Source of the DNA: a virus
Length of the DNA: 30,772 nucleotides
IMG/VR virus record: IMGVR_UViG_3300006790_000073
Span: 1 to 30,772 of that record
Reading direction: 5' to 3' (one strand)
The notes beneath the pieces were generated by a model. It saw only the letters and a program-made list of their open reading frames with translations, made no database searches and was not told the DNA's origin. The position numbers and the translations under genes are program-made. Of this stretch, positions 1,238-22,930 are shown in pieces (the first letter of the stretch is position 1; the number at the start of each line of letters is the position of its first letter).

Positions 1238-1379
1238 ATTCCGAAAGGTTTTCCGGTTCCGTTTCTAATTCTAACTCGATTCGTTTTCCCTCGATCACCA
1301 CGCGCTTGACAACCCGCCCTTCGGCTTCGAAGGCTTTCAGGTAATTCAGGGCTTTCTTTTCGGCTGTCATGGCTGGCAT
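1194..1379 (-). CDS. small conserved phage protein, unknown function
   Basis: About 61 aa, starting MPAMTAEKK. The ATG at 1379 has a good Shine-Dalgarno AGGGGA six bases upstream. The alternative ATG at 1370 overlaps the stop of the DUF5131 gene as ATGA. The protein is short and highly charged: residues KALNYLKAFEAEGR followed by alternating hydrophobic/charged residues (VVKRVVIEGKRIELEL) suggest a helix and a beta-strand pair. It sits directly upstream of the integrase and overlaps its start, so it is translationally coupled to it. An excisionase or integrase-accessory role is possible from position alone, but no HTH or winged-helix signature is visible. I do not recognise the family with certainty. 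Confidence 0.65.
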   Translation of the reverse strand: MPAMTAEKKALNYLKAFEAEGRVVKRVVIEGKRIELELETEPENLSEFDKVDMRYDKAGAS

Positions 1380-2434
1380 GGTGCGTCCCCTTCCAGCAGG
1401 CCGCGTGGCACCTCGTTCCACTGCTGTCCGTCCAGTGATCGCCCGGCGGCTTTCTTGCCGATGCGGTGCATGGACATAGGGCGCGGACCTGCAAACGCAC
1501 CGTGGGGTGCTTTTGGGAACTGCCCCTTTTTTCCCAAATCGTATTCTGTGCCGTCACTGTCCATGCAGATGCCATCGAACCGGCGGCGGGTGTCAGCGTC
1601 CGGATGTTCTTCTGGCGCTTCATCAAACAGAATGGGGTCGATGGTTTCATTGTGTTCGGAATAGGGTTGCCATTCCCCCCACTGTTTGAAGAAGAAAGCG
1701 ACACCGGCGGCGGTGCACTGGTCGCGCAAGTCGCGTGCCCAATCGGGGTGCATCGGGCGGGCGTTCGGGCCGCTTTCGCCGCCGCAGATGACCCAATCAA
1801 TGTGCGGGCCGCTGCGGCCAAGGCCATCGACGCCGGTCAATGCGCCGTGGCAGATAGTGATGTTTTTGCTGATTTTCCCCTTCGGGACTGCGGCGAAGTC
1901 TATGCTTCCCAAAAGCGGTTCAGCGCTGACAAACCGAATTGCCGCAGGCGCGGCCAGCAGGTGCGGAATGTTCTGGTTGGCCGTCTTCTGTGTCCCGGCG
2001 CTGGTGCCAAGCCATACGTGGGGCCAGCCATCCCCCCAATCTGGCGGCAACATCTTCGCGATGTTCTGTGGGCGCTTTGTCAGCAGCAGCCAATCCAGTT
2101 GGTCACATTCCCGAATGAGCGCCCAAAGGTCTTCGCGCCAGCTGCTGGCCACGGCATTGTCGAAAACATCGGCCAGCGATGCGCAGAAGACCCGCTGTCG
2201 CCGCCCGTGGGTGGCGTGGAAGGCTTCGGCCTGCGCGTTCCACCGGCGCGGCTTGTTCCAGTTCTGTGCGCTAGTCCTGCGCCGGGGGGCCTTTGGTCCC
2301 CAATGGATGCCGCCGGTGAACCTTTGGTCGCGATTTTCGGCATAGCAGTGGTCGCATTCCGGGGCGACCTTCTGGCATCCTTCCCACGGATTGAACGTGT
2401 GATCTGTCCATTCAATTTTCGACTGTTCAGCCAT
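1367..2434 (-). CDS. DUF5131 family protein (phage Gp37/Gp68-like)
   Basis: The 355-aa protein starts MAEQSKIEWTDHTFNPWEGC, the typical opening of the DUF5131 / phage Gp37-Gp68 family found in mycobacteriophages and many prophages. Cys20, Cys27 and Cys30 form a C-x6-C-x2-C cluster in the N-terminal region, reminiscent of the radical-SAM iron-sulfur motif (C-x3-C-x2-C) but with different spacing. Later segments VFCASLADVFD, WLLLTKRPQNIAKMLP, VWLGTSAGTQ, RFVSAEPLLG and WVICGGESG are characteristic family motifs. The start at 2434 has AAAGGA seven bases upstream and overlaps the DUF4031 stop. The biochemical function is not established; a metal-cluster enzyme is inference. It is in the leftward early operon. 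Confidence 0.9.
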   Translation of the reverse strand: MAEQSKIEWTDHTFNPWEGCQKVAPECDHCYAENRDQRFTGGIHWGPKAPRRRTSAQNWNKPRRWNAQAEAFHATHGRRQRVFCASLADVFDNAVASSWREDLWALIRECDQLDWLLLTKRPQNIAKMLPPDWGDGWPHVWLGTSAGTQKTANQNIPHLLAAPAAIRFVSAEPLLGSIDFAAVPKGKISKNITICHGALTGVDGLGRSGPHIDWVICGGESGPNARPMHPDWARDLRDQCTAAGVAFFFKQWGEWQPYSEHNETIDPILFDEAPEEHPDADTRRRFDGICMDSDGTEYDLGKKGQFPKAPHGAFAGPRPMSMHRIGKKAAGRSLDGQQWNEVPRGLLEGDAPCQP

Positions 2435-2753
2435 GGGCTCGTCCTTTCACGCAGGCGGCTTTCGCCGCTTCGACTGCGGCGCGTTCGTCAAGGTCTGCGA
2501 ACCACTTGCTGCGGTATCGCTTCACCACATCGACCAGCTGGCGGCGGTTCACTTCGATGGCCCCGGCAGCGACCGCCTTGGACCGCATCGCTTTGCAGAT
2601 GTCGAAGTGTGGATGGCTGGCGTGCTGGAACCACTTGCGGGCCACTCCAATCTGGTCGGCCATCGCCAGAAGTTCTTCCATGCTGTCGGCCAGCATGTGG
2701 CACATGACCATCCGACCGACGCGGTGACGGGGTGCATCGACATAGACGGCCAT
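2427..2753 (-). CDS. DUF4031 domain protein
   Basis: About 108 aa, starting MAVYVDAPRHRVGRMVMCH. The ATG at 2753 shares one base with the stop of the previous gene and follows a GAGGAG ribosome site. The opening YVDAPRH, the segment HMLADSMEELLAMADQIGV and the later HFDICK motif match the DUF4031 family, small proteins common in phages and bacteria. Several conserved His, Asp and Trp residues (VDAPRH, WFQH, HPHFD) suggest metal or nucleotide binding, but no activity is established. The last bases overlap the DUF5131 start, so the two are probably co-translated. Confidence 0.85.
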   Translation of the reverse strand: MAVYVDAPRHRVGRMVMCHMLADSMEELLAMADQIGVARKWFQHASHPHFDICKAMRSKAVAAGAIEVNRRQLVDVVKRYRSKWFADLDERAAVEAAKAACVKGRAHG

Positions 2754-3121
2754 CACATCAACTCCTCGGTTTCGTGCCGGGTCAACGCGCCCGGTTCTTC
2801 CCAAACGAATGCGCCATCCATCGTTGTCTCGAGGCGGTCGCGGGCGATTTCCAAGATTTCAGAAACGATGCGCCCGCGAATTTCCTTGGCAATCCGCCGT
2901 TCGCGCAGTGCGGGGTGTTCGATGGTAGGGGTGATGCCATCGTGGATCTGCACCAGCCTTTCCAGTTCATCCCAAAGTGCATCGCAGCACGCCCCGTGGT
3001 GGCCAATCTGTTTTTCAGGTGCCCGCGACCATGCGGCGGCGTCATCGCGTGCCGTCAAGGCCCGTTTCGCCAGCGCCAGCACGCGCTGCAGGTCATCGTG
3101 GATTTCTGACGGTTGGGTCAT
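2753..3121 (-). CDS. hypothetical protein, helical
   Basis: 122 aa, starting MTQPSEIHDDLQRVL. It is almost entirely predicted helix with many charged residues and one Cys-Cys pair (HHGACCDALWDEL). The start overlaps the SNF2 gene stop as ATGA and the end overlaps the DUF4031 start as TGATG, so it is embedded in the operon. No family recognised. The amphipathic segments RVLALAKRALTARDD and LRERRIAKEIRGRIVSEILE could form coiled coils. Confidence 0.75.
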   Translation of the reverse strand: MTQPSEIHDDLQRVLALAKRALTARDDAAAWSRAPEKQIGHHGACCDALWDELERLVQIHDGITPTIEHPALRERRIAKEIRGRIVSEILEIARDRLETTMDGAFVWEEPGALTRHETEELM

Positions 3122-4776
3122 TCGCTTGCCTCCCGGCCAAGGACTGCCATGGCCAGCTTGCGCATGCGGCTGTCATCCATCTGTTTGGCGTCGAAGCCCT
3201 GCATCGGGTCGATGATGCCCCGGCTTTGGTCGGCCTTGACCCCTAGCATGTCCATGATGACAGGATCGCTGCCGCCAGCGGTGTGCAGGTAGTGCGCGGT
3301 GACTTGTCTGGTCTGACCGGGGCGGCGCAATCTGCCGATGACCTGTTTGTGCACCTGCGGTGACCAATCCAATTCGCCAAACACCACGTCGCTGCAGTAT
3401 TCCTGCAGGCCGTCAAGGCCAGCGCCAGACCGCAGGGAAATCATCATCACGCGGGCATCGCCCTTGGTGAAGCGTTCGACGTTTCGGCGCTTGCCTGCGG
3501 GGCTTTCTGTCCCGGTGTACATGACCGGGTTATGGTGCTGCAGTGCGCGGTTCCAGATGTCATAGACATCGCGGTGCCAGCCTGCCAGCAGCACGCGGGG
3601 GCTGTCGCGCAGCAGAAGGTCCACATAGGCCGCAACGGAGTCGGCCTTGGCCACGCCTGTCAGCAGGCGCATCTTCATGTCCAATTCCCGCGCAGCTTGT
3701 CCGGCCTTCACGAATGACCCTTCCAGAACGGTCATCGCCAGTGTCTTGAATAGGTCTTCGGCGTCCTGTGCTGCCCCCTCGTTCCAGCCCACTTCCCAAT
3801 CGACCGTGTTCAAGGGCGGCATCTGTGCCGACACCGTTTCATCGAATTCGGTGCGGCGCAGAAAATACCCCTTGTCGCGCAGGTAGGTGCCAAGGGCGTC
3901 CGGGTTTTTGACCGTCTTCCCCCAATCGCACCATTCGCGCATGAATTCATCGCGGTTGCCCAAAAGGCCCGGTTCGATGAACTGCATCACGTTGAAAATT
4001 TCATCGCCGTAGTTGTAGATCGGTGTGGCGGTCAGGCCCATCGAAACATCGGCTGTCGAAGACAGCAGGTCTGCAGCGACACCCTTGGCAGTGCCCCTGC
4101 CGGTGCGCAGTTCCTGCACTTCATCATAAATGACCGTGCGGAACAGGCCGGTGTTGATGACATCGGTCCAGCCCGCGATGTTCGAATACTTGAACACATA
4201 GGCATCTGCCATCGGCAGGTCATAGGGTTTGGTGCCCTTGATGATGTGCGTGCGAAGGTTTGTGAATTCCTCCGCACGGTCTGCCCATTGCCCGGCAAGG
4301 TGGGGCTGCACCACGATAGCGGCTGGCAACGGTGCGCCGCTGGTCAGTGTGCATAAGGCGGAAATCGTTTTCCCAAGGCCAAGGTCATCGCCTAGCAGCA
4401 GGTTCGGGTTCTGAATTGTCAGTGCTGCAGCTTGCTGCTGATAGCCATAAGGCTGTCGGCCTTCCACAAAGCCGGATGCTGTCGCGGGCTTCCAGTCTGG
4501 CATCAGGATGCGTTCGCGTTCGGCGGCTTTCGTTGTGATGCGTTCGACACCGGCAGTCAGGTCGGCTTCATGGGTGTGCTTCAGGGGATAGCGCTGCATG
4601 AACCAGTGCAGGTCCGCGCGGTTTTCGTCGGTGTCGGTCAGAACGATTTCCTGCGCGGTCTTCGGCACCTTTGTGAACAGGCGCTTGAAAGCTATGGCGA
4701 CGTGCGGCTGAAGGTCGGTGATGCGCCAGTGCGGCGGGTTTTCCCCAAGGTTCAGGCTTCCATAGGTGATGGTCAC
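3118..4776 (-). CDS. SNF2-family DNA helicase/ATPase
   Basis: Superfamily 2 DNA-dependent ATPase, about 552 aa from a GTG start at 4776. That start overlaps the nuclease stop as GTGA and is preceded by GGGGAGGGG. A longer frame to 5037 only reads out-of-frame nuclease sequence, so I reject it. Visible motifs are GDDLGLGKT (Walker A, about residues 130-137), YDEVQEL (motif II, DEVQ rather than DEAH, about 217-223), GLTATP (motif III, about 247-252), SLRSGAGLDGLQ (motif V) and QVIGRLRRPGQT (motif VI). Phage SNF2 proteins of this size usually travel with a small PD-(D/E)XK nuclease, as here, and are thought to act in replication or recombination. A role in defence or anti-defence is possible but unsupported. 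Confidence 0.93.
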   Translation of the reverse strand: MTITYGSLNLGENPPHWRITDLQPHVAIAFKRLFTKVPKTAQEIVLTDTDENRADLHWFMQRYPLKHTHEADLTAGVERITTKAAERERILMPDWKPATASGFVEGRQPYGYQQQAAALTIQNPNLLLGDDLGLGKTISALCTLTSGAPLPAAIVVQPHLAGQWADRAEEFTNLRTHIIKGTKPYDLPMADAYVFKYSNIAGWTDVINTGLFRTVIYDEVQELRTGRGTAKGVAADLLSSTADVSMGLTATPIYNYGDEIFNVMQFIEPGLLGNRDEFMREWCDWGKTVKNPDALGTYLRDKGYFLRRTEFDETVSAQMPPLNTVDWEVGWNEGAAQDAEDLFKTLAMTVLEGSFVKAGQAARELDMKMRLLTGVAKADSVAAYVDLLLRDSPRVLLAGWHRDVYDIWNRALQHHNPVMYTGTESPAGKRRNVERFTKGDARVMMISLRSGAGLDGLQEYCSDVVFGELDWSPQVHKQVIGRLRRPGQTRQVTAHYLHTAGGSDPVIMDMLGVKADQSRGIIDPMQGFDAKQMDDSRMRKLAMAVLGREASE

Positions 4777-5132
4777 AATGCGCCCCTCCCCAATGAGACA
4801 AGGAACAGCGGCACCCCGTGAATCTGATCGGGCAGGCCAAGGTATGTGCCGGTGACCAGTATCAATCCGGTCAGCCGGTCGCCTTCGCAGTAGCGTTCCA
4901 TCTGGCGATAGATTTGGCGGCGCGGGCATCTGGTTTTCACCTCGATGCCGATGGTGTCGGCCACCATGAAGTCGATGCGGTCTTTCGGCCCCATGCGCAC
5001 TTCGCGTTCGAAGGGCGTACCGGTGCTGGTCAGCCAATCTTCCAGCGCGTCCTGCAGCGCCAGTTCGGTTGTCACAGGCATGCGCAGGCCGCGCAGCTGG
5101 TGGGTCAGGGCTTGGGGTGTGATGTCAGACAT
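4773..5132 (-). CDS. PD-(D/E)XK-like small nuclease
   Basis: 119 aa, starting MSDITPQALTHQLRG. The ATG at 5132 has GGAGG six bases upstream, and the longer frame to 5264 overlaps the neighbouring gene. The core is ELALQDALEDWL, then FEREVRMGPKDRIDFMV, then IGIEVKT. This is the E...D-x(n)-E-x-K pattern of the restriction-nuclease fold, with the Asp in RIDF and Glu/Lys in EVK. The helix IYRQMERYC follows, as in Holliday-junction and VRR-NUC enzymes. The gene is coupled by GTGA overlap to the SNF2 ATPase, so the two probably form one DNA-processing unit. The exact substrate (branched DNA, nicked DNA or ends) cannot be read from the sequence. Confidence 0.8.
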   Translation of the reverse strand: MSDITPQALTHQLRGLRMPVTTELALQDALEDWLTSTGTPFEREVRMGPKDRIDFMVADTIGIEVKTRCPRRQIYRQMERYCEGDRLTGLILVTGTYLGLPDQIHGVPLFLVSLGRGAL

Positions 5133-5391
5133 CTTCCGCCTCCCGTACCGGGTCCAGCAGGTTGCGGTGCACGGGCACGAATGGCCAGTCTTCGCCCCTG
5201 ATGGCTGCACGGCTGCGCAGAGTTTCGGCTTGGTGGTGATAGCCAAGCCATGACCACGTGACATCGGTGGTGGTGCCCTGACCGGACAGGTGCAGCAGTT
5301 CGCCTGTCTGCGGATTGCGCAGGCGCACCTTGTCCTTGGCCAGCAGGGTCTGGAACGCGCGTTCCTTGGGGTTTGCGAACTGCACCGGCAT
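5125..5391 (-). CDS. hypothetical protein
   Basis: 88 aa, starting MPVQFANPKERAFQTLLAK. The ATG shares a base with the preceding gene's stop (TGATG), and the end overlaps the nuclease start by 8 bp. It is soluble, with a central NPQTGELLHLSGQGTT segment and several Trp residues (WSWLGYHH, WPFVP). It sits immediately upstream of the nuclease-SNF2 pair, so a link to DNA processing is plausible but only positional. No family recognised. Confidence 0.7.
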   Translation of the reverse strand: MPVQFANPKERAFQTLLAKDKVRLRNPQTGELLHLSGQGTTTDVTWSWLGYHHQAETLRSRAAIRGEDWPFVPVHRNLLDPVREAEDV

Positions 5392-5618
5392 CAGAAGGCA
5401 ATCTCTTCGGCGTCACGGCGGGCCGCGAAATCACAATCCGTCAGCGCGAAATCGCGGGTGCCGTTCTTGTCGTGGTCGAAGCCTTCCAGCAGCCATTGCG
5501 GCTGCGGGTGATACTTGGTCGCGCCCCAATAGATGCGGATCGGTGTGACCGTTCGAATGGCGAACTGGCCGCGCCAGTTGACATAACCGAATTCGATGAT
5601 GCGGGGATGGTCAGGCAT
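5391..5618 (-). CDS. hypothetical protein, small beta-rich (phage family)
   Basis: 75 aa, starting MPDHPRIIEFGYVNWRG. The ATG at 5618 overlaps the upstream zinc-finger gene by 8 bp. Segments YWGATKYHPQPQWLLEGFDHDK and TRDFALTDCDF resemble a small protein seen in many alphaproteobacterial prophages and loci, in which a W-L-L-x-x-x-D-x-D-K core precedes RDFAL. I know of no assigned function. The fold looks mostly beta-strand, like a small barrel. Confidence 0.75.
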   Translation of the reverse strand: MPDHPRIIEFGYVNWRGQFAIRTVTPIRIYWGATKYHPQPQWLLEGFDHDKNGTRDFALTDCDFAARRDAEEIAF

Positions 5619-5826
5619 ATCGCTTTTGGCTCCAATAGTGTTCCCGCGCCCATGCGACCTGTTCAGCGACGATTTGCGCGGCGGTTTTGGCGATGCGACC
5701 AGTGCCGTTGCACTGATTGCAGGGAATGTCGGTTGAACCGAAGACGGTGCGCTGCCGGTCGGCTTCGCGCCGCAATTCACAGGCTGGGCAGGTGTAGCCA
5801 TTGCCGTGCAGCGTGGGGTCTGGCAT
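5611..5826 (-). CDS. small zinc-ribbon protein
   Basis: 71 aa with two C-x2-C knuckles: YTCPACELR near residue 13 and IPCNQCNGTGRI near residue 37. The second is of the DnaJ-type C-x-x-C-x-G-x-G form. Four cysteines of this spacing usually bind one zinc. The ATG at 5826 has GGAG six bases upstream. Small zinc-ribbon proteins in phage early operons often bind nucleic acid or a host protein; that is inference. Confidence 0.75.
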   Translation of the reverse strand: MPDPTLHGNGYTCPACELRREADRQRTVFGSTDIPCNQCNGTGRIAKTAAQIVAEQVAWAREHYWSQKRYA

Positions 5827-5829
5827 TGG

Positions 5830-6060
5830 TCACTCCGCATTGTCCTTGGCCCACCCCATCACCTTGAATTTCAGGAAGTCACCGATGCGGGATGCGACAT
5901 CGCAGTGCGCCTTGTTCCGGCCATAGGTGGTGACGTGTTCGCCGCAGGGTTCCGGTTCTTCGCCCACGCGCCGCGCAATGATGACCACTTGGTCATAGCC
6001 ATAGGATTTCGCGATGCGTTCGGCGGCGCTGATCGGGATGGGCTTCATCGGGGCGGTCAT
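5830..6060 (-). CDS. conserved phage hypothetical protein
   Basis: 76 aa. Segments AERIAKSYGYDQVVIIARRVG and GEHVTTYGRNKAHCDVASRIGDFLKFKVMGW form a pattern I recognise from other alphaproteobacterial phages, without an assigned function. The first half looks like an alpha-beta unit, and the second carries conserved His and Cys residues (EHVTTYG, KAHCD). It starts two bases after the GapR-like gene stop. Confidence 0.75.
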   Translation of the reverse strand: MTAPMKPIPISAAERIAKSYGYDQVVIIARRVGEEPEPCGEHVTTYGRNKAHCDVASRIGDFLKFKVMGWAKDNAE

Positions 6061-6062
6061 GG

Positions 6063-6449
6063 TCAGGCCATCCCCAATGCTTCTTTGTACATTTCCAGCA
6101 CGGCCTCTTCTTCGGCCACATCATTGGCATCGCGCTTGCGCAGTGCGATGACCTTGCGCATCACCTTGGTGTCGTACCCACGGCCCTTGGCTTCGGCCAT
6201 CACCTCCTTCTGCTGGTCAGCGATGTCCTTCTTTTCCGCGTCCAGACGTTCGAAGCGTTCAATGAAAGACCGCAGTTCTTCGGCGGTGACCCGATAGGAA
6301 TTATCGGCGGCAGAATCGAAAGTGGGATCTGGTTTCATCGGGGGCTTTCCCTTCATGCGGCGCAATTCTTCGGTTCGCGCCTTCATGGCGGCGACCGTGG
6401 TTTCCACCGTTTGGTCGCCTGCCGTTATCGTGACGCGGGTGTCATCCAT
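6063..6449 (-). CDS. DUF2312 / GapR-like DNA-binding protein
   Basis: 128 aa. Residues about 52-128, from YRVTAEELRSFIERFERLDAEKK through EVMAEAKGRGYD to VIALRKRDANDVAEEEAVLEMYKEALGM, match the DUF2312 family. Its Caulobacter member GapR binds A/T-rich, overtwisted DNA and supports replication. Here an extra N-terminal extension of about 50 residues (MDDTRVTITAGDQTVETTV and on) precedes the domain, whereas chromosomal GapR is about 90 residues. The start shares a base with the NYN gene stop. A role in phage or host DNA topology is a family-based inference. Confidence 0.9.
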   Translation of the reverse strand: MDDTRVTITAGDQTVETTVAAMKARTEELRRMKGKPPMKPDPTFDSAADNSYRVTAEELRSFIERFERLDAEKKDIADQQKEVMAEAKGRGYDTKVMRKVIALRKRDANDVAEEEAVLEMYKEALGMA

Positions 6450-6994
6450 CAGGCTGCAGCGCCGTCGCGGGCTTTGCGGGCGATGGCATCGCGCAGGGTG
6501 TCCAGTTCCACGAAAGCGTCAGCTGCGCGGCGCAGGTCATCGGCAATCATCGGGGGTTGCGTGCGCATGCTGGACACCACGGTGACCCGCGTGCCGCGTT
6601 CCTGAAGGAACGTGACCAGCGGGGTGAAGTCGCGGTTGCCGGTGAACAGCACGGCATGGGCGATGGCCGGTGCCAGCTTCATCACTTCCACGGCCATTTC
6701 GATGTCGGTGTTGCCCTTGATGCGCTTACGCCCGTCTTCGGCTTCAAAGACCTTGGCGGGCTTGGTCACCACGTTCCAGCCGTTGTACTGCATCCAGTCC
6801 ACCAGCGGGCGGATGGCCACGTGGTCATCAGTGTCGGCCAGCGGGGTGAAATAGCTGGCCCGCAGCAGCCGCCCCTTGGTCTGGAAGGCTTCCAGCAGGC
6901 GCTTATAGTCCACGTCGAACTGCAACGCGCGGGCGGTGGAATAGAAATTGGGGCCGTCGATGAACAAGGCCAAGTTTTCGTCTTTGTAGAACAC
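6449..6994 (-). CDS. NYN domain protein (LabA/PIN-like)
   Basis: About 181 aa from a GTG at 6994 with AAAGGA six bases upstream; a TTG at 7015 is also possible. The core NLALFIDGPNFYSTA, then KGNTDIEMAVEVM, then VLFTGNRDFTPLV is the LabA-like NYN family, a PIN-like metal-dependent ribonuclease fold. Acidic residues are Asp13 (FIDG), Asp97 (NTDIE) and Asp122 (NRDF). The usual SGDxDF reads TGNRDF, so one conserved acidic position is Asn120 and activity may be altered. Chromosomal relatives are common in Rhodobacterales. The phage copy lies between a small membrane peptide and the GapR-like gene. RNA cleavage is inferred from the family. Confidence 0.88.
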   Translation of the reverse strand: MFYKDENLALFIDGPNFYSTARALQFDVDYKRLLEAFQTKGRLLRASYFTPLADTDDHVAIRPLVDWMQYNGWNVVTKPAKVFEAEDGRKRIKGNTDIEMAVEVMKLAPAIAHAVLFTGNRDFTPLVTFLQERGTRVTVVSSMRTQPPMIADDLRRAADAFVELDTLRDAIARKARDGAAA

Positions 6995-7011
6995 GGGCAA
7001 TCCTTTCGTGG

Positions 7012-16008: not shown

Positions 16009-16036
16009 GTGACGGTAGTCGAACGGAGGGCGGGTG

Positions 16037-16600
16037 ATGTTCAGCGTGGGCGAAGTCGATGTGAAGGGCCTGCAGCGGTTCGAAAACATGCTGGGCGCTT
16101 TGGGGGCGGAAGCGCCTAAGGCCGTGAACCGGGCGCTGAACCGCACCGGCGACATGGCCCGCACGCAAGTCGTGCGCACGCTGGCACGTCAAACCGGACT
16201 GCCACAGAAGACCATCCGCAAGGCGGTCAAGGTCAAGCGGTCCACGTGGTCGGACCTGAACTATACGATGTCCGCCGCTGGCGGTGACGTGTCGCTGAAG
16301 TATTTCAAGCCGCGCGAAACCCGCAAGGGCGTGACCGCGTTCGTGCGGGGCAAGCGCGAACTGTACGAAAGCACCTTCCTGAAGGGTGGCAGCTTCACCC
16401 GTGGGCGGGTGGTTCTGAACATGGGTGGTCATGTCTTCCTTCGGGTTGGCAACCGAACCGACTTGGAAAAGCAAAAGTCCGGTGTGGTCATCCCGGCGGA
16501 AATGGTGGACGGGGCAACCGCCGAAGCGTTCGACCGCACAGTGTCTGAACAGCTTCCGCGCCGATTGGACCATGAAATCAGTCGCCTTCTGGGCCTCTAA
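16037..16600 (+). CDS. phage minor tail protein Z-like (gpZ)
   Basis: 187 aa from ATG 16037, with GGAGGG six bases upstream. VGEVDVKGLQRFENMLGALGAEAPKAVNRALNRTGDMARTQVVR, then LARQTGLPQKTIRKAVKV, is the signature of the GPZ minor tail protein family (lambda gpZ), which acts in tail completion and joining. Residues after 100 (ESTFLKGGSFTRGRVVL) are the beta-rich half. In lambda, Z lies after the head genes, but here it is the first late gene, before terminase. Family relatives also occur in contractile-tail phages, so the protein can still act at the head-tail interface. Confidence 0.85.
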   Translation: MFSVGEVDVKGLQRFENMLGALGAEAPKAVNRALNRTGDMARTQVVRTLARQTGLPQKTIRKAVKVKRSTWSDLNYTMSAAGGDVSLKYFKPRETRKGVTAFVRGKRELYESTFLKGGSFTRGRVVLNMGGHVFLRVGNRTDLEKQKSGVVIPAEMVDGATAEAFDRTVSEQLPRRLDHEISRLLGL

Positions 16601-16777
16601 CCGGCCCCGAAAAGGCAAGGGACCGTACCCCGTCCGGAAAGCACGCGGTGCGGAAGCGGCCCGAGGGTTCGGCAGTCAGACGGCTTTTGCAAAGCCTTAA
16701 CAATAAGGGGATTTCACTTAACGCCGGGCGCTTAACATACCTGCCCCACCGGCCCCGGACAGGATGGACAGGCACAC
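16601..16777 (+). promoter_or_regulatory. gap with clustered CTTAAC hexamers
   Basis: No gene is seen. CTTAAC occurs at 16696-16701, 16717-16722 and 16731-16736, and CCTTA/TAAGG forms a short inverted repeat at 16695-16708. TTAA is rare in this GC-rich window, yet the same hexamer or its complement occurs in the late leader and before the repressor. It may be a regulator site or promoter before the terminase operon. Confidence 0.4.
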
Positions 16778-17503
16778 ATGCAGCCAGCACATCAGGAAAT
16801 GTCGCAGGCCGATTTCGCGCGGGCCATGGGGGTCAGCCGCGCGGCGGTCAGTCAGTGGAAGTCGAAGGACATCCTGCGCGACGATGCGTTCACCAAGCCG
16901 GGTAAGTCCGGCAAGATCATTTACCCGGTCGCGGTTGAACAGGTCCGGCGCAACCGTGACATCGGTCAATCGCTTGGCAATGGCATCGCGACCCGGACCA
17001 CGGTGGATGACGCACCGCAGGTGCAACCCACCGCCGCGCCAGACCCTGCGCCTGCGCCGGTCCAGCAGCCAAGCCTGCCGATGGCCGAAGCCGCCCCGGT
17101 TGAACAGGCCGCGCCCGAAGCGCCTGCCGCGTCATCGACCCCGGCTGCGCCAAAGCCCGATACCGTCGAAGACCAGCTGAAGCGGGCCAAGCTGGAAGAA
17201 CAGCTGCGCCGCAATCGAATTCAGGCGGCGGATGAAGCGCTGCGGCAGGGCATGCTGATGTCTGCCGACGATGCCCGCGAACAGATGACCCGCATCGCGG
17301 GGATGATGCTTCAGATTTTCGAAGGCGCTTTGCCTGACTTTGCCGCCGCGATGGCCGCACAGTTCGACATTCCGCAGCGCGATGTCCTGCACCTGCTGCG
17401 GGCGGAATTCAAAAAGGTCCGCAAGACGGCGGCGATGAAAGAACGCGCCCGCGCGGATGAAGTGGAAAAGGACGTGGCCACCTCGGTTGAACTGGATGCC
17501 TGA
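16778..17503 (+). CDS. terminase small subunit-like (Nu1-type)
   Basis: 241 aa. The N-terminal MSQADFARAMGVSRAAVSQWKSKDIL is a helix-turn-helix/winged-helix like lambda Nu1, which recognises the packaging site. An Ala/Pro-rich linker of about 80 residues follows (PAPAPVQQPSLPMAEAAPVEQ). Then a helical part (LKRAKLEEQLRRNRIQAADE and MLQIFEGALPDFAAAMAA) probably carries oligomerisation and large-subunit contact. The stop shares a base with the large-subunit start. DNA recognition and packaging start are family knowledge; the cos or pac sequence is not identified. Confidence 0.85.
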   Translation: MQPAHQEMSQADFARAMGVSRAAVSQWKSKDILRDDAFTKPGKSGKIIYPVAVEQVRRNRDIGQSLGNGIATRTTVDDAPQVQPTAAPDPAPAPVQQPSLPMAEAAPVEQAAPEAPAASSTPAAPKPDTVEDQLKRAKLEEQLRRNRIQAADEALRQGMLMSADDAREQMTRIAGMMLQIFEGALPDFAAAMAAQFDIPQRDVLHLLRAEFKKVRKTAAMKERARADEVEKDVATSVELDA

Positions 17504-19473
17504 TGCTGGATGTCGCTGTCACAAGCGCCGAATGGATGGCGCACGATGTTCTGGCGGATGTCATCGACCCGCCGCCGCCTGTCGATTACCTGACATGGGC
17601 AGAAGAAAACATCGTCTTTTCGTCGCGGGAAAGTCCGCTGCCCGGCCCGTACAACCGGGAACGCTTCAGCTACTTTGACGAAATCCTGCGGGCCTTGTCG
17701 CCCGATGACCCGTGCCGGGTTGTCACCTTGTCGAAATCAGCGCAGCTGGGCGGCACGGTGCTGGCCAATATCTTCACCGGCGGTTCCATGGACATGGACC
17801 CCGGCGATTTCCTCTATGTCCACCCGACCGACGAAAACGCGCGGCGGTGGTCGAAGATGAAGCTGGCCCCGATGCTGAAAGGCACCACGGCGCTGCGCAA
17901 GATTTTCCCGATGAAGGCCCGCGACGGTCAGGATTCGGTTTTCTACAAAGAGCGCCGCGACGGTCGCGGGGCTATCCAGATTTCAGGCGCGAATTCGCCC
18001 GCTTCGCTTTCGCAAGTGTCCATGTCCCGGCAGGTTCAGGATGACCTTGCCAAGTGGGATATGAACAGCGCTGGCGACCCGGAAACCCAAGCGGACAGCC
18101 GCAGTCAGGGTTACGAATTCGCCAAGATTTTCAAGATTTCGACGCCCATGGTGGTTCCGGGGTGTCGCATCACAAAGAACTTTGAGTCCGGCAGTCAGGA
18201 ATTTCTGCACGTTCCATGCCCGCATGACGAATGCGGCCACATGCAGGTGCTGGAATGGGAAAACATGCTGGCCAGTCTGGATGAAGACCATCCGGAGCGG
18301 GCGCATTTCACCTGTGAAGGCTGCGGGGCTTCGATTGAAGAACACCACCGCCCGAAGATGCTGCGGGGAGCCAAGTGGATCGCCGCGAACCCGAAGATGA
18401 AGCGGGTGCACCGGTCATTCTACATCTGGTCGGCCTATTCGCTGCTGCAGTCCTTTGAACGCATCGCGCGGTCATGGCTGTCGGCCAAGGGCGACCCGCC
18501 AAAGGAGCAGACCTTCTGGAATGACGTGGTGGGCAAAGCCTATCGCGTCTTGGGCGAAGCGCCGCCATGGGAAGACATCCGCGACCGTGCGTCGGAATCG
18601 GATTATGCCCACGGCACCATCCCTGCGGGCTTCCCGTTGCTGACCTGCGGTGTGGACTGTCAGGGCGACCGGGTGGAATGGCAGGTGGTCGCGTGGGGTC
18701 AGAACAAGCGCCGCGCGGTGGTCGAATATGGCGTGTTCAATGGGCACATTTCCGATGAAGGGTGCCAGTCGAAACTGAACGGCCTGCTGCGGCAGGGCTT
18801 TCGGAACGCCTATGGCCGGAAGGTTGAAATCGACCTGCTGGCCATCGACGGCAACGCCTACACCGAAGACGTTTGGGATTGGGCGCGTCGGCACCCGGCA
18901 TCCCGCGTCATCATGGTGCGTGGTGTGCATCCTGAAAGCGCCCCGCTGCTGGCGCAGGTGAAGAAGGAACGGAATCGGCGCGGCAAGATCGTTCGCTATT
19001 CGAAGCGCTTCTTCAACTTCGCATCGTCGGTTCTGAAGATGGGGCTTTACCGGAACCTGAAGAAGACAGATCCGGAAGAACGCGGGTTCATCGCCCTGCC
19101 GAAAGGGTTGGAAGATGAATTCTTTCGTCAGCTGACGGCGGAAAGCCGGAAGGCGCAGAAAGCGAAATCGGGCTTCACCCGGTATCTGTGGGTGAAGGAC
19201 CCGAATCAAGCGAACGAAGGTTTGGACACCCACCTTCAGGCGGAAGCTGCGGCCATTCGCCTTGGGGTGCGCAATCTGCCGGACACCGAATGGGACCGCC
19301 TGATGACGGAACGCGAACGCCCGCCGGAAGATGTGCAGGGCGACTTCGAAGACCTGCTGATGGCGGCGCAGCCGCAAGCCGAACAGGTGGCGGATGAAAA
19401 GCCCGCCGAAGACGAAACTGAAGCGCAGGCCAAAGAGCGTGCGCGGTCGAAGTGGAAACGAAGAACTTCTTGA
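17503..19473 (+). CDS. terminase large subunit (GpA family)
   Basis: 656 aa, the usual size for GpA terminases (about 640 aa). It cuts concatemeric DNA and drives it into the procapsid. The ATPase P-loop is SKSAQLGGT (residues 77-85), in which the usual Lys-Thr/Ser pair is replaced, as in several GpA members with an upstream Lys (Lys78). The acidic position around QDD (179-181) is Walker B-like. A four-cysteine zinc finger is formed by Cys239, Cys244, Cys271 and Cys274 (CPHDEC and CEGC). The C-terminal nuclease has GVDCQGDRVEWQVVAWG and IDLLAIDGNAYTEDVWDW. The C-terminal tail is acidic and Glu/Ala-rich, and probably contacts the portal. Start ATG 17503 overlaps the small-subunit stop. Confidence 0.95.
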   Translation: MLDVAVTSAEWMAHDVLADVIDPPPPVDYLTWAEENIVFSSRESPLPGPYNRERFSYFDEILRALSPDDPCRVVTLSKSAQLGGTVLANIFTGGSMDMDPGDFLYVHPTDENARRWSKMKLAPMLKGTTALRKIFPMKARDGQDSVFYKERRDGRGAIQISGANSPASLSQVSMSRQVQDDLAKWDMNSAGDPETQADSRSQGYEFAKIFKISTPMVVPGCRITKNFESGSQEFLHVPCPHDECGHMQVLEWENMLASLDEDHPERAHFTCEGCGASIEEHHRPKMLRGAKWIAANPKMKRVHRSFYIWSAYSLLQSFERIARSWLSAKGDPPKEQTFWNDVVGKAYRVLGEAPPWEDIRDRASESDYAHGTIPAGFPLLTCGVDCQGDRVEWQVVAWGQNKRRAVVEYGVFNGHISDEGCQSKLNGLLRQGFRNAYGRKVEIDLLAIDGNAYTEDVWDWARRHPASRVIMVRGVHPESAPLLAQVKKERNRRGKIVRYSKRFFNFASSVLKMGLYRNLKKTDPEERGFIALPKGLEDEFFRQLTAESRKAQKAKSGFTRYLWVKDPNQANEGLDTHLQAEAAAIRLGVRNLPDTEWDRLMTERERPPEDVQGDFEDLLMAAQPQAEQVADEKPAEDETEAQAKERARSKWKRRTS

Positions 19474-19600
19474 CCTGAGAAACTCCGGGCGCGTGAGCGC
19501 AGGTGCAACCGGCTGAACACATAGGCTGGACCGGAACAGGCAAGGACAAGCGGGGCCGGTCAGGTCGGTGAAATCGTGGGTTCAAATCCCGCCCCCGCTG
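19474..19600 (+). ncRNA. tRNA-like structured segment between terminase and portal genes
   Basis: AGCGGGG (19549-19555) pairs perfectly with CCCCGCT (19593-19599), exactly 7 bp like an acceptor stem. A canonical T arm precedes the 3' strand: stem GTGGG/CCCGC with loop TTCAAAT (19576-19592). A discriminator-like G follows at 19600. Only 20 bases replace the D and anticodon arms, so it is not a normal tRNA and no anticodon can be named. Upstream, GACCTGA (19472-19478) could pair with TCAGGTC (19560-19566), GACCGG with CCGGTC, and GCGC-GTGA-GCGC is a GNRA hairpin. This may be a tRNA remnant, a tRNA-like RNA or a packaging-related structure. CCA is not encoded. Confidence 0.5.
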
Positions 19601-19620
19601 ACAAATTCGAAGGGAACGCG

Positions 19621-21201
19621 ATGAGCGGTCTAATCAAGCCAGACGGAACGCCACTGGTGGCGGCTGAACGGTCTTCGCGCCCGACCGCCCGCTATATGCG
19701 TGACACCAAGAGTGGCGTCATCGCCAGCCGGGTCGCGCCCCTGACCAGCCATCGTGACGATGTGCGCCGGTCATGGTCGCGGGCTGCAGGTCTGGCCATG
19801 GACCTGATCCAGAACAGCGGTCGCCTGAAAGGTGCGACCGACCAAGTTCTGGCCGACACGGTTGGCGTGGGTCTGACCCTGACGCCTGACCCGGACCTTT
19901 CGGGCATGGGGTATGACGAAAAGGAAAAGGCTGACTGGATTCGGTTGGTCAAAAAGCGCTGGCGGGCCTATTGGCACAACGCCCGTGAATGCGACATGCG
20001 TGGCAAGCTGACGGGTCCGCAGATGGTGGACATCGGGCTGCGCTGGCACATCGCCTATGGCGAGGCGACCGGCGTCTTCGATTTCTTCACCGCAGGCGAC
20101 CGCAGCCGGTATGGCATCACCAGCGGCACCAAGCTGTGCCTTGTTCCGCCGCCCCGACTGGTGCAGGACACCAGTCCGCTGGAAGGGCTGTTCCAAGGGG
20201 TGCATCACGATGGCAAGGGCCGTCCGGTGTCCTATCGCTTCGAAACTGTCACCGGCGGTTTGAAGTCGAAGCGCGACTATGCGGCATTCGATGTCGATGG
20301 TCGCCCGCTGGTCATGCACGTCTTTGACCCGATGGACGCCACTGATGTTCGGGGCATTTCGCTGCTGGCACCGGCCTTCCGGAAGCATATTCAGGCGGAA
20401 ATGCTGGATGACGCGACCCTGCAGATGGCCATTCTGCAGACGGTCTTTGCCATCACGCTGACATCCGAAGCGCCAAGCCAAGATGCCTATGAAGCGCTGG
20501 AAGTGCTGAAGGAAAGCGAAGGCGGCACGGGGTATGCACAGGAGTATCTGGACTTCCTTGGGGCGCAGCTGGACCGGGCAGCGGAAAGCCGGATTTCGGT
20601 TGGCGCTGACCCGCAGGTGTCGCACCTTGGCCCCGGCGAAAAGCTGGGCATGGAAACCGCGAAGGTGCCCGGTCAGGACTTCCTGCCGTTTTCGAACAGC
20701 CTTGCCCGCGACATGGCCCGCACCATCGGCATCACCTATGGCGGGCTGACGATGGACCACACCGCTGCGACCTATTCCAGCGTGCGCATGGAAAATGCGT
20801 CCATCTGGGCCGTGGTGATGCGGCGGCGCGAACGCATTGCCGCTCCGATGTGCCAGATGGTCTATGGCAACTGGCTGGATGAAGAGGTGGGCGAAGGCCG
20901 CATTCCGTTCAAAGGCGGATATGAAGCCTTCCGCGCGAACCGTGACCGGGTGGCAGCTGCAAACTGGCAGGGGCCTGCGAAGCCCACGGCGGACGATTAC
21001 AAGTCGGCACGGGCTTCGACCGAACGGCTGTCGAATGGCACCAGTTCCATCGCCAATGAAACCGGCGACCTTGGGGTGGACCCGGATGCGCTGTTTGAAC
21101 AGCGCCAGCGGGAACACCAGCGCTATGTCGATGCGGGGATGGAATCGCCCTATGCGGCACGGGATGCGCAGCCTGTCATCGAAACGGAGCCTGCCCCATG
21201 A
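19621..21201 (+). CDS. portal protein (lambda gpB family)
   Basis: 526 aa from ATG 19621 with AAGGGA upstream; the longer frame from 19576 reads the RNA-like segment and is rejected. RDTKSGVIASRVAPLTSHRDDVRRSWSRAAGLAMDLIQNS and GATDQVLADTVGVGLTLTPDPD are typical of the lambda gpB portal N-terminus. LGPGEKLGMETAKVPGQDFLPFSNSLARDMARTIGITYG, then YSSVRMENASIWAVVMRRRERIA, is the conserved C-terminal portal core. It forms the dodecameric ring for DNA entry and connects the head to the tail. It ends with an ATGA overlap into the gpW-like gene. Confidence 0.95.
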   Translation: MSGLIKPDGTPLVAAERSSRPTARYMRDTKSGVIASRVAPLTSHRDDVRRSWSRAAGLAMDLIQNSGRLKGATDQVLADTVGVGLTLTPDPDLSGMGYDEKEKADWIRLVKKRWRAYWHNARECDMRGKLTGPQMVDIGLRWHIAYGEATGVFDFFTAGDRSRYGITSGTKLCLVPPPRLVQDTSPLEGLFQGVHHDGKGRPVSYRFETVTGGLKSKRDYAAFDVDGRPLVMHVFDPMDATDVRGISLLAPAFRKHIQAEMLDDATLQMAILQTVFAITLTSEAPSQDAYEALEVLKESEGGTGYAQEYLDFLGAQLDRAAESRISVGADPQVSHLGPGEKLGMETAKVPGQDFLPFSNSLARDMARTIGITYGGLTMDHTAATYSSVRMENASIWAVVMRRRERIAAPMCQMVYGNWLDEEVGEGRIPFKGGYEAFRANRDRVAAANWQGPAKPTADDYKSARASTERLSNGTSSIANETGDLGVDPDALFEQRQREHQRYVDAGMESPYAARDAQPVIETEPAP

Positions 21202-21458
21202 GTACGATGAAGGTTGGCCAAGATGTCGTGCAGATGGATGACCCCTGTGCGATGGCCGATGCGCTGCGCAAGGTTCGCATTCGTTTGAGTGCGGGCCAGC
21301 TTCGGGAAACCGTGCGCATGGACGGCGAGGAAGTCACATTCCAGCGGGCGCGGCTGGATGACCTGAAACAGCTGATTGCGGAATACGAAAACGCCTGCCG
21401 CCGGAAGACCGGCGGCGCGGCCCGCACCAGACATGCGAAGCGGTTCCGCTTCACCTGA
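21198..21458 (+). CDS. head-tail joining protein gpW-like
   Basis: 86 aa, overlapping the portal stop as ATGA. MADALRKVRIRLSAGQLRETVRMDGEEVTFQRARLDDLKQLIAEYENACRR matches the lambda gpW pattern: short N-terminal helix, a beta hairpin with V..DG..V.F..A...DL, and a final helix. gpW plugs the portal after packaging. In lambda it precedes the portal gene; here it follows it. Confidence 0.8.
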   Translation: MSTMKVGQDVVQMDDPCAMADALRKVRIRLSAGQLRETVRMDGEEVTFQRARLDDLKQLIAEYENACRRKTGGAARTRHAKRFRFT

Positions 21459-21475
21459 CCGACAAGGAGACAGAC

Positions 21476-22546
21476 ATGACCATCTTGGTGGATGGCGAAC
21501 TCGTTCTTTACGGGTTCGTCGGGGATGACTTTTGGGGTGATGGCTTTACCGCATCGCAGGTCATCGACGCGCTGGCGATGCTGGGGCGTGATGCGGACAT
21601 CACCGTGCGCATCAATTCGGGCGGCGGTTATACCGATGACGGCATTGCCATCTACAACGCCCTGAAAGCACATCGCGGGGATGTTGCCGTGGTGGTCGAT
21701 GCCATCGCGGCATCGTCGGCTTCGGTCATCGCCATGGCGGGTGACACCATCACCATGCGGGCCGGTGCCCTGATGATGATCCATGACCCGGCGAAGTTCA
21801 CGTGGGGCAATGCGGGCGACCACGAAAAGTCCACCGAACAGCTGAACAAGCTGGCTGACCTGATGGCCGATATCTACGCCGAACAGACCGGCGAAGATGC
21901 CGAAACCATCCGCGAAGATATGAAGGCCGAACTGTGGCTGACCGGCGCGGAAGCGGTGGAACGCGGGTTCGCAACCGACACCGAAGGGGGCCGCGCCAAG
22001 GCTGTCGCCGCCTTCGATTACCGGGTTTATTCCCAAGCCCCCAAGAAACTCGTGGCCATGGCGAAGAAGGAAAAGTGGTCCTTCGAAGCTGCGACCCGAA
22101 ACGCGGCGTCCGCCGTGCAACCCCCGGACCATGAAAAGGAGACACCGACCATGGCACCCAAACCCGAAGCGGCGGACAAGACACCCGCCAATCCGGCCCC
22201 CGGTCAGCCGACCGGCGGCGCTGATGCTTCCAGCGCTGCGGATGTGAAGGCCCGCATCAAAGCCATCACCGAAGACGATGCGGCAAAGGGGCATGAAGCC
22301 CTTGCGAAGCATCTGGCCTTCGACACCGACATGCCCGCCGATGACGCCATTGCGGCGCTGAAGGCGGCAGCAACCGATGCGCCGCAGGCGAAGGCCGACG
22401 ATGCGCCGAACCCCGCCAAGTATCAGGCCAGCCGCAGTGCCGCCGCTGACCTTGCGCAACCCGCGCCGGGCGCTTCGGCCAAGCCGAAGGCCACCATCAA
22501 CACCGGGGGCATCTATGCCGCCCGCCGTGCCGGAAAGGAGGCATAA
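21476..22546 (+). CDS. ClpP-like prohead protease with scaffold C-terminus
   Basis: 356 aa. Residues 1-200 are a ClpP/S14-like capsid maturation protease: RINSGGGYTDDGIAIYNAL, catalytic Ser80 in AIAASSASVIAMAG, His103 in MMIHDPAKF. Residues about 200-356 are a flexible Ala/Pro/Lys-rich scaffold (AADKTPANPAPGQPTG, then DVKARIKAITEDD). A second in-frame ATG at 22151 with AAGGAG nine bases upstream would make the scaffold alone, as in lambda C/Nu3. The protease cuts itself and the scaffold during head assembly. Start ATG 21476 has AAGGAG upstream. Confidence 0.93.
   Translation: MTILVDGELVLYGFVGDDFWGDGFTASQVIDALAMLGRDADITVRINSGGGYTDDGIAIYNALKAHRGDVAVVVDAIAASSASVIAMAGDTITMRAGALMMIHDPAKFTWGNAGDHEKSTEQLNKLADLMADIYAEQTGEDAETIREDMKAELWLTGAEAVERGFATDTEGGRAKAVAAFDYRVYSQAPKKLVAMAKKEKWSFEAATRNAASAVQPPDHEKETPTMAPKPEAADKTPANPAPGQPTGGADASSAADVKARIKAITEDDAAKGHEALAKHLAFDTDMPADDAIAALKAAATDAPQAKADDAPNPAKYQASRSAAADLAQPAPGASAKPKATINTGGIYAARRAGKEA
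22151..22546 (+). CDS. nested scaffold protein (Nu3-like)
   Basis: In-frame internal product of the protease gene, about 131 aa, starting MAPKPEAADKTPANP. It has a strong Shine-Dalgarno AAGGAG at 22136-22141 and proper spacing, inside the coding sequence. Lambda makes Nu3 from the same arrangement in gene C. The product would act as an internal scaffold for capsid assembly and be degraded later. Confidence 0.75.
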   Translation: MAPKPEAADKTPANPAPGQPTGGADASSAADVKARIKAITEDDAAKGHEALAKHLAFDTDMPADDAIAALKAAATDAPQAKADDAPNPAKYQASRSAAADLAQPAPGASAKPKATINTGGIYAARRAGKEA

Positions 22547-22549
22547 GCC

Positions 22550-22930
22550 ATGGAAAACGCAACCATGCAGACCCGCAATCTGGTTTTCCTGCTGTCTGAG
22601 GCCGCAGGCCGCCGTTCGCGCAGTATCGTCACCATCGCCAATGGCGCGGGCAAGCTGGCCGCTGGCACCGTTCTGGGCAAGGTGACCGCCACCGGCGAAT
22701 ACGTTCCCGCGCCCGCTGCCGAAGTGGTCGGCAAAGAAGGTGCCGAAACCGCCGTGGCCATTCTGGCCTATGGCGTCGATGCGACCGACCAAGCGGTGGA
22801 AGTCACCGCCATCGACCGCGATGCCGAAGCCAAGCTGCCGATGCTGTCTTTCGACGCTTCGGTGGACGATCAAGCCAAAACCGATGCGAAGGTGGCGCAG
22901 CTGAACGCTGTCGGCATCCGCGTGCGCTAA
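22550..22930 (+). CDS. head decoration protein gpD-like
   Basis: 126 aa. SIVTIANGAGKLAAGTVLGKVTATGEYVPAPA, then GAETAVAILAYGVDATDQAVEVTAIDRDAEA, is the lambda gpD family of capsid-stabilising trimers (normally about 110 aa). The start has AAGGAGG eight bases upstream. It lies between the protease/scaffold gene and the major capsid gene, the lambda order C-Nu3-D-E. Confidence 0.88.
   Translation: MENATMQTRNLVFLLSEAAGRRSRSIVTIANGAGKLAAGTVLGKVTATGEYVPAPAAEVVGKEGAETAVAILAYGVDATDQAVEVTAIDRDAEAKLPMLSFDASVDDQAKTDAKVAQLNAVGIRVR

Follow-up and report, generated by a model that had tools for sequence, protein, structure and literature searches.

The window analysed here is the whole 30,772-nt stretch of an IMG/VR virus record, which is integrated adjoining a tRNA-Cys gene (31-104) and encodes an integrase. 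Its late region, in which a Clp-type protease and a capsid gene are also recognised by Pfam, carries on the plus strand the gene of the large terminase subunit gpA (terL, 17503-19473; PF05876 and PF20454), followed by that of a lambda-type portal protein (19621-21201; PF05136). The 147 bases from the terminase stop to the portal start encode no recognisable protein, and they harbour a structured element whose tRNA-like part runs in the direction of both late genes and stops 20 nt 5' of the portal start. Downstream of that part, TTCGAAGGGA (19606-19615, plus strand), which is common to the homologous element described below, would provide the portal with a ribosome-binding site (GAAGGGA), a role suggested by its spacing. 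Outside the late region, the integrase and the tRNA-Cys attachment region (30-1454) are 96-97% identical among the window, the prophage that carries that homologue and a third phage, L007; the structural genes of the window and of the former, in contrast, share no more than about 76% identity, which means that the integration module travels separately. Next to it, on the minus strand, lies variable cargo (1367-7015) with DUF5131, SNF2-like and NYN-domain genes, which is possibly defence-related.

The tRNA-like part (19549-19600, plus strand) is laid out exactly as the initial annotation had described it: the strands AGCGGGG (19549-19555) and CCCCGCT (19593-19599) form a perfect 7-bp acceptor-like stem, which is followed by a discriminator-like G (19600) and then by ACA, not CCA, and which encloses a T arm (GTGGG-TTCAAAT-CCCGC, 19576-19592). 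The place of the D and anticodon arms is taken by just 20 nt (19556-19575), which hold a D-loop-like segment, GTCAGGTCGGT (19559-19569), and neither a conserved D stem nor an anticodon arm. Such a layout (7 bp, 5 bp and a TTCRANN loop) is expected 0.01 times per window, given that 30 Mb of random sequence with matching dinucleotide composition contained 5 hits, and it was observed once. Upstream of it, and overlooked by the initial annotation, there is a hairpin that is part of the same element (CCGGCT-GAACACATA-GGCTGG, 19509-19529, plus strand). It is flanked by an outer helix that can be read directly from both known sequences (19484-19535, plus strand): TCCGG (19484-19488) with CCGGA (19531-19535) in the window and CTCCG with CGGAG, at the same place, in the homologue, although this helix is weak evidence because its 4 common pairs do not vary. 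The folding energy is unremarkable (z = -0.4 for 19471-19602 and -1.2 for the tRNA-like part), and the structure would have been missed by folding energy alone. As for the pseudoknot that had been proposed between GACCTGA and TCAGGTC, the pairing does exist in the window, but it is equalled in 4.6% of shuffles and has no counterpart in the homologue, which speaks against it.

That homologue, L012, belongs to a prophage of Palleronia caenipelagi, where it occupies exactly the same terL/portal junction (it is the same element as L103). It offered the possibility of looking for compensatory stem changes in a homologous phage, and these were found. The 18 pairs of the three helices (6 in the hairpin, 7 in the acceptor-like stem and 5 in the T stem) are all standard in both sequences; 12 of the 36 paired positions differ and not one of the 18 pairs is broken, the changes amounting to 5 two-sided, compensatory ones, 3 of them in the acceptor-like stem, and 2 one-sided ones to or from G-U. 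The T stem and the hairpin stem, which reads CTGGCT-GAACACATA-GGCCAG in the Palleronia prophage, both take part in this compensation. No double change appeared when the structures were slid by 1-3 columns as a control, and a random placement of the same 12 changes kept all the pairs in 0 of 400,000 trials. The loops are kept (7/7 positions in the T loop, 9/9 in the hairpin loop and 12/14 in the D-like region, with 10 of the 11 nt of the D-loop-like segment identical), and so is the acceptor-to-T-arm gap of just 20-21 nt, and the hairpin holds an invariant 16-nt run (GGCTGAACACATAGGC). Conservation is lower in the two connecting stretches, with 9/19 positions in the spacer that joins the hairpin to the acceptor and 2/6 in the link from the D-like region to the T stem. 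The element as a whole is identical at 65 of 93 positions, and the flanking genes are about 76% identical, a similar divergence. Two sequences are few, yet such a pattern would be hard to get without selection on the RNA fold, and the structure-preserving changes therefore point to function. What the analysis shows is a structure that is real, under selection, placed in non-coding space and optional.

A coding explanation was considered for the hairpin, namely a short peptide ending in LNT before a TAG (CTG AAC ACA TAG); since the two members have different upstream frames and the stem shows compensatory changes, the segment is read as RNA and not as coding sequence. An antisense target was likewise rejected: 13 nt of the hairpin (TGAACACATAGGC) recur at 4191-4203, opposite the SNF2-like gene (3118-5037, minus strand), a match that is probably due to chance because neither the Palleronia phage nor the L007 phage has this gene. 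A host-wide scan for the complement of the hairpin loop returned only one other site.

The element is a presence/absence polymorphism among relatives. In most of the near relatives, among 78 viral loci retrieved by means of the terminase, terL and the portal gene are joined directly, with a terL stop that overlaps or touches the portal start. In L007, two blastn matches to the window (16036-19456 and 19616-22615) adjoin each other at L007 coordinates 4954/4963, so that the inserted segment comprises 159 bp (19457-19615, plus strand), including the altered last codons of terL, where L007 has 8 bp (GAAACAGG). On both sides the two phages are close: terL is 97% identical, the portal and the next gene are 90-99% identical in 200-base steps, and the identity drops, to 82%, only towards the distal end of the compared stretch. 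The usual portal ribosome-binding site sits in the terL tail, and both elements bring TTCGAAGGGA as a new one; the element swaps the usual direct junction for a spacer equipped with a separate ribosome-binding site. The terL tail of the window (KWKRRTS, versus KWRNRTR in L007, L012 and most relatives) looks as if the segment had been exchanged by recombination with another phage, in an event that may have been a gain or a loss of the element. At the same junction, two further loci (L028, after 3840, and L020, after 4970) bear different short insertions, which contain small reading frames, and for that reason the junction looks like a tolerated insertion point.

How widespread is this element? 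Neither pattern scans of IMG/VR and GTDB nor models run on roughly a thousand alphaproteobacterial genomes brought up a third member, although records close to the window may have been missing from the sequences searched. A covariance model built on the two members hit only the Palleronia locus in 394 genomes of its family, 390 of its order and 385 of its class, samples that overlap and searches that apply strict filters. A terminase at least 75% identical was present in just 4 of the 394 family genomes, and the element in Palleronia only; furthermore, neither the rest of the Palleronia genome nor any of several hundred related genomes showed additional copies. The remaining matches were discarded one after another. 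The exact 16-mer occurred in L012 and in three unrelated coding hits; the D/T-loop pattern reached, besides L012, unrelated sequences (L279, L300 and L088 among them); the pattern scan of the GTDB genome collection recovered the same Palleronia locus, ordinary tRNAs and chance coding hits; the matches of model R1 in other genomes (25-35 bits) were partial and, viral loci included, contained no recognisable tRNA-like element; and BLASTN against phage and plasmid records gave just tRNA-like or short chance matches. In the part of the literature that was searched, no description of such an element appeared. As an RNA, then, the element is real and very rare.

Two of those discarded matches deserve a remark in their own right. 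On the minus strand of L088, a 110-kb viral contig, an anticodon-less tRNA-like sequence (GTCGGGT, a D loop, GGGGGTTCGAATCCCTC and ACCCGGC, at about 1370-1430) stands alone between genes. In turn, L279 and L300 contain viral tRNA genes that are apparently split by group I introns and in which the D/T pattern had reached the 3' part of the tRNA; ARAGORN called neither of these tRNAs.

What could such an element do? The role in late gene expression or packaging that had been suggested for it survives only in its first half: an effect on late expression is still the leading idea, whereas the element is not a packaging RNA of the pRNA type and packaging does not require it, because it is absent from L007 and further relatives whose terL and portal are nearly the same. 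RNase P and the CCA-adding enzyme use the acceptor stem, the T arm and the G-G of the D loop of tRNAs, and the anticodon part is needed for decoding. A processing signal is the simplest reading, since the part that RNase P reads is kept, in one orientation between late genes, and ends just before the portal gene. The element would accordingly be a structured RNA within the late transcript, whose 3' half imitates the top half of an anticodon-less tRNA (acceptor stem, T arm and the elbow formed by the D and T loops) and is cut by the host RNase P around 19548/19549 and possibly cut again, or trimmed, on its 3' side close to 19600. In the manner of tRNA punctuation, this cut would separate the terL and portal messages and end their translational coupling, leaving the portal with its own ribosome-binding site on a short leader that begins just before it. 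A small RNA would be freed, which may include the invariant hairpin as its functional part; otherwise, the hairpin might form the end of the terL message. Inside the element, signals resembling promoters or terminators were not seen, which fits the processing of a read-through transcript. We give this reading a probability of roughly 0.38. The efficiency of the processing is uncertain, because CCA is not encoded and neither U8/A9 nor the D stem of tRNAs is kept, and any benefit would be conditional, given that the presence of the element is optional. Against it, the invariant hairpin is unexplained by processing alone, and just two members are known.

The main rivals are a mimic acting in trans and a switch of translation in cis, and the invariant loop of the hairpin favours a binding partner. 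The excised RNA could act in trans as a tRNA mimic that occupies a host tRNA-binding factor (a defence protein, a nuclease, or an enzyme that modifies tRNAs or adds CCA); the GAACACATA loop would then offer a second site for binding, and the junction would be no more than a tolerated place for cargo. The tRNA-like fold without the decoding part, the invariant 16 nt, the cargo-like presence/absence and a junction that takes other insertions (L028, L020 and extra short reading frames) all suit this proposal, which is nonetheless rather doubtful: it has no known partner, the only coding sequence common to the window and the L012 phage and absent from the L007 phage being a stretch of 31 residues in the DUF5131 gene close to the integrase, and no promoter of its own is seen. 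Alternatively, the tRNA-like fold, or the hairpin beside the ribosome-binding site, could bind a host factor in cis, much as the thrS operator does, and would tune the portal against terL after the loss of their direct coupling. The short distance to the portal start and the ribosome-binding site that the element carries speak for such a switch, and two states are possible, as the UGAAC of the hairpin loop can pair with GUUCA of the T loop (5 nt, found in about 3% of shuffles). That pairing, however, is short and bound up with two conserved loops, and the relatives manage without the element, so that we deem a switch of this kind unlikely.

Readings in which the phage draws no benefit fare worse. 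A short tRNA-like repeat could be passed between phages as a non-autonomous, mobile or recombination-borne element; its clean gain or loss between phages 97% identical on both flanks, the altered terL tail as a trace of arrival or loss by recombination, and an imperfect direct repeat at its two ends (TCGAAGTGGA and TCGAAGGGA) speak for it. Nevertheless, the same site and a divergence like that of the flanks fit descent within one junction, the genomes searched hold no copies elsewhere, and the structure-preserving changes point to function, all of which makes this origin quite improbable. Least probable by far is a decayed tRNA or a remnant of an attachment event, as the initial annotation had also contemplated. 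The weak Rfam tRNA matches of the two members (18.5 bits for the window and 20.0 bits, with a cut-off of 29) are in its favour; the co-variation of the stems, which is not what decay leaves, largely refutes it, and it is further opposed by CC in place of U8-A9/G9, by the missing CCA and by the lack of a similar tRNA in the host (the best match of the element to any of the 28 host tRNAs covers 24 of 32 positions); moreover, the attachment site is the tRNA-Cys, which lies elsewhere. A more ambitious version of the processing idea, which we hold to be somewhat doubtful, is that of a new class of phage small RNAs: an anticodon-less tRNA mimic joined to an invariant hairpin, cut out of the late mRNA by the host enzymes that process tRNAs, and either re-setting the terL/portal ratio or occupying a host tRNA-binding factor. 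The 97%-identical prophage without the element is a natural isogenic-like comparison, and an element so compact and optional would make it possible to test directly whether phages employ RNase P to cut mRNAs or make tRNA decoys.

Bacteria have few tRNA-like RNAs with no role in decoding, and the element resembles several of the known systems in part. It shares with canonical tRNAs (RF00005) the 7-bp acceptor and the 5-bp T stem, here kept by compensatory change, the 7-nt TTCAAAT loop, the D-loop-like GG and the discriminator-like base, and differs from them in lacking an anticodon arm, a conserved D stem, U8 and an encoded CCA, and in scoring below the gathering cut-off, which excludes a working tRNA. 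In the window, ARAGORN called the tRNA-Cys only, and in L012 it called nothing; the bases after the acceptor are GACAAA and GAACTT, respectively, while all 28 distinct host tRNAs examined encode CCA; and where the element has CC at positions 8-9, those tRNAs have the normal arrangement (T or C, then A, G or other bases). The tRNA-like domain of tmRNA (RF00023 and its clan), which the initial annotation had invoked, is alike in its acceptor, its T arm and a D-loop-like segment without a D stem. Unlike it, the element has no tag reading frame or long insert between the D-like segment and the T arm; neither ARAGORN nor Rfam called a tmRNA, and there is no room for an in-domain tag frame or pseudoknots. 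YrlA, a bacterial Y RNA, is non-coding and includes a tRNA-like module that has a D and a T loop, a likeness in the tRNA-mimicking domain that goes with no Rfam match and no TROVE/Ro protein (PF05731) in the Palleronia genome. The thrS operator of E. coli is an example of tRNA mimicry in a leader just 5' of a start codon, where the fold described here also lies, but it mimics the anticodon arm, exactly what the element does without. Finally, mascRNA and menRNA (RF01684, the best weak Rfam match of that type in the window, with 19.0 bits and a cut-off of 42.5) are released by RNase P from MALAT1 and NEAT1; they are eukaryotic, and the likeness is one of functional analogy only, that of a small tRNA-like fold ending a longer transcript.
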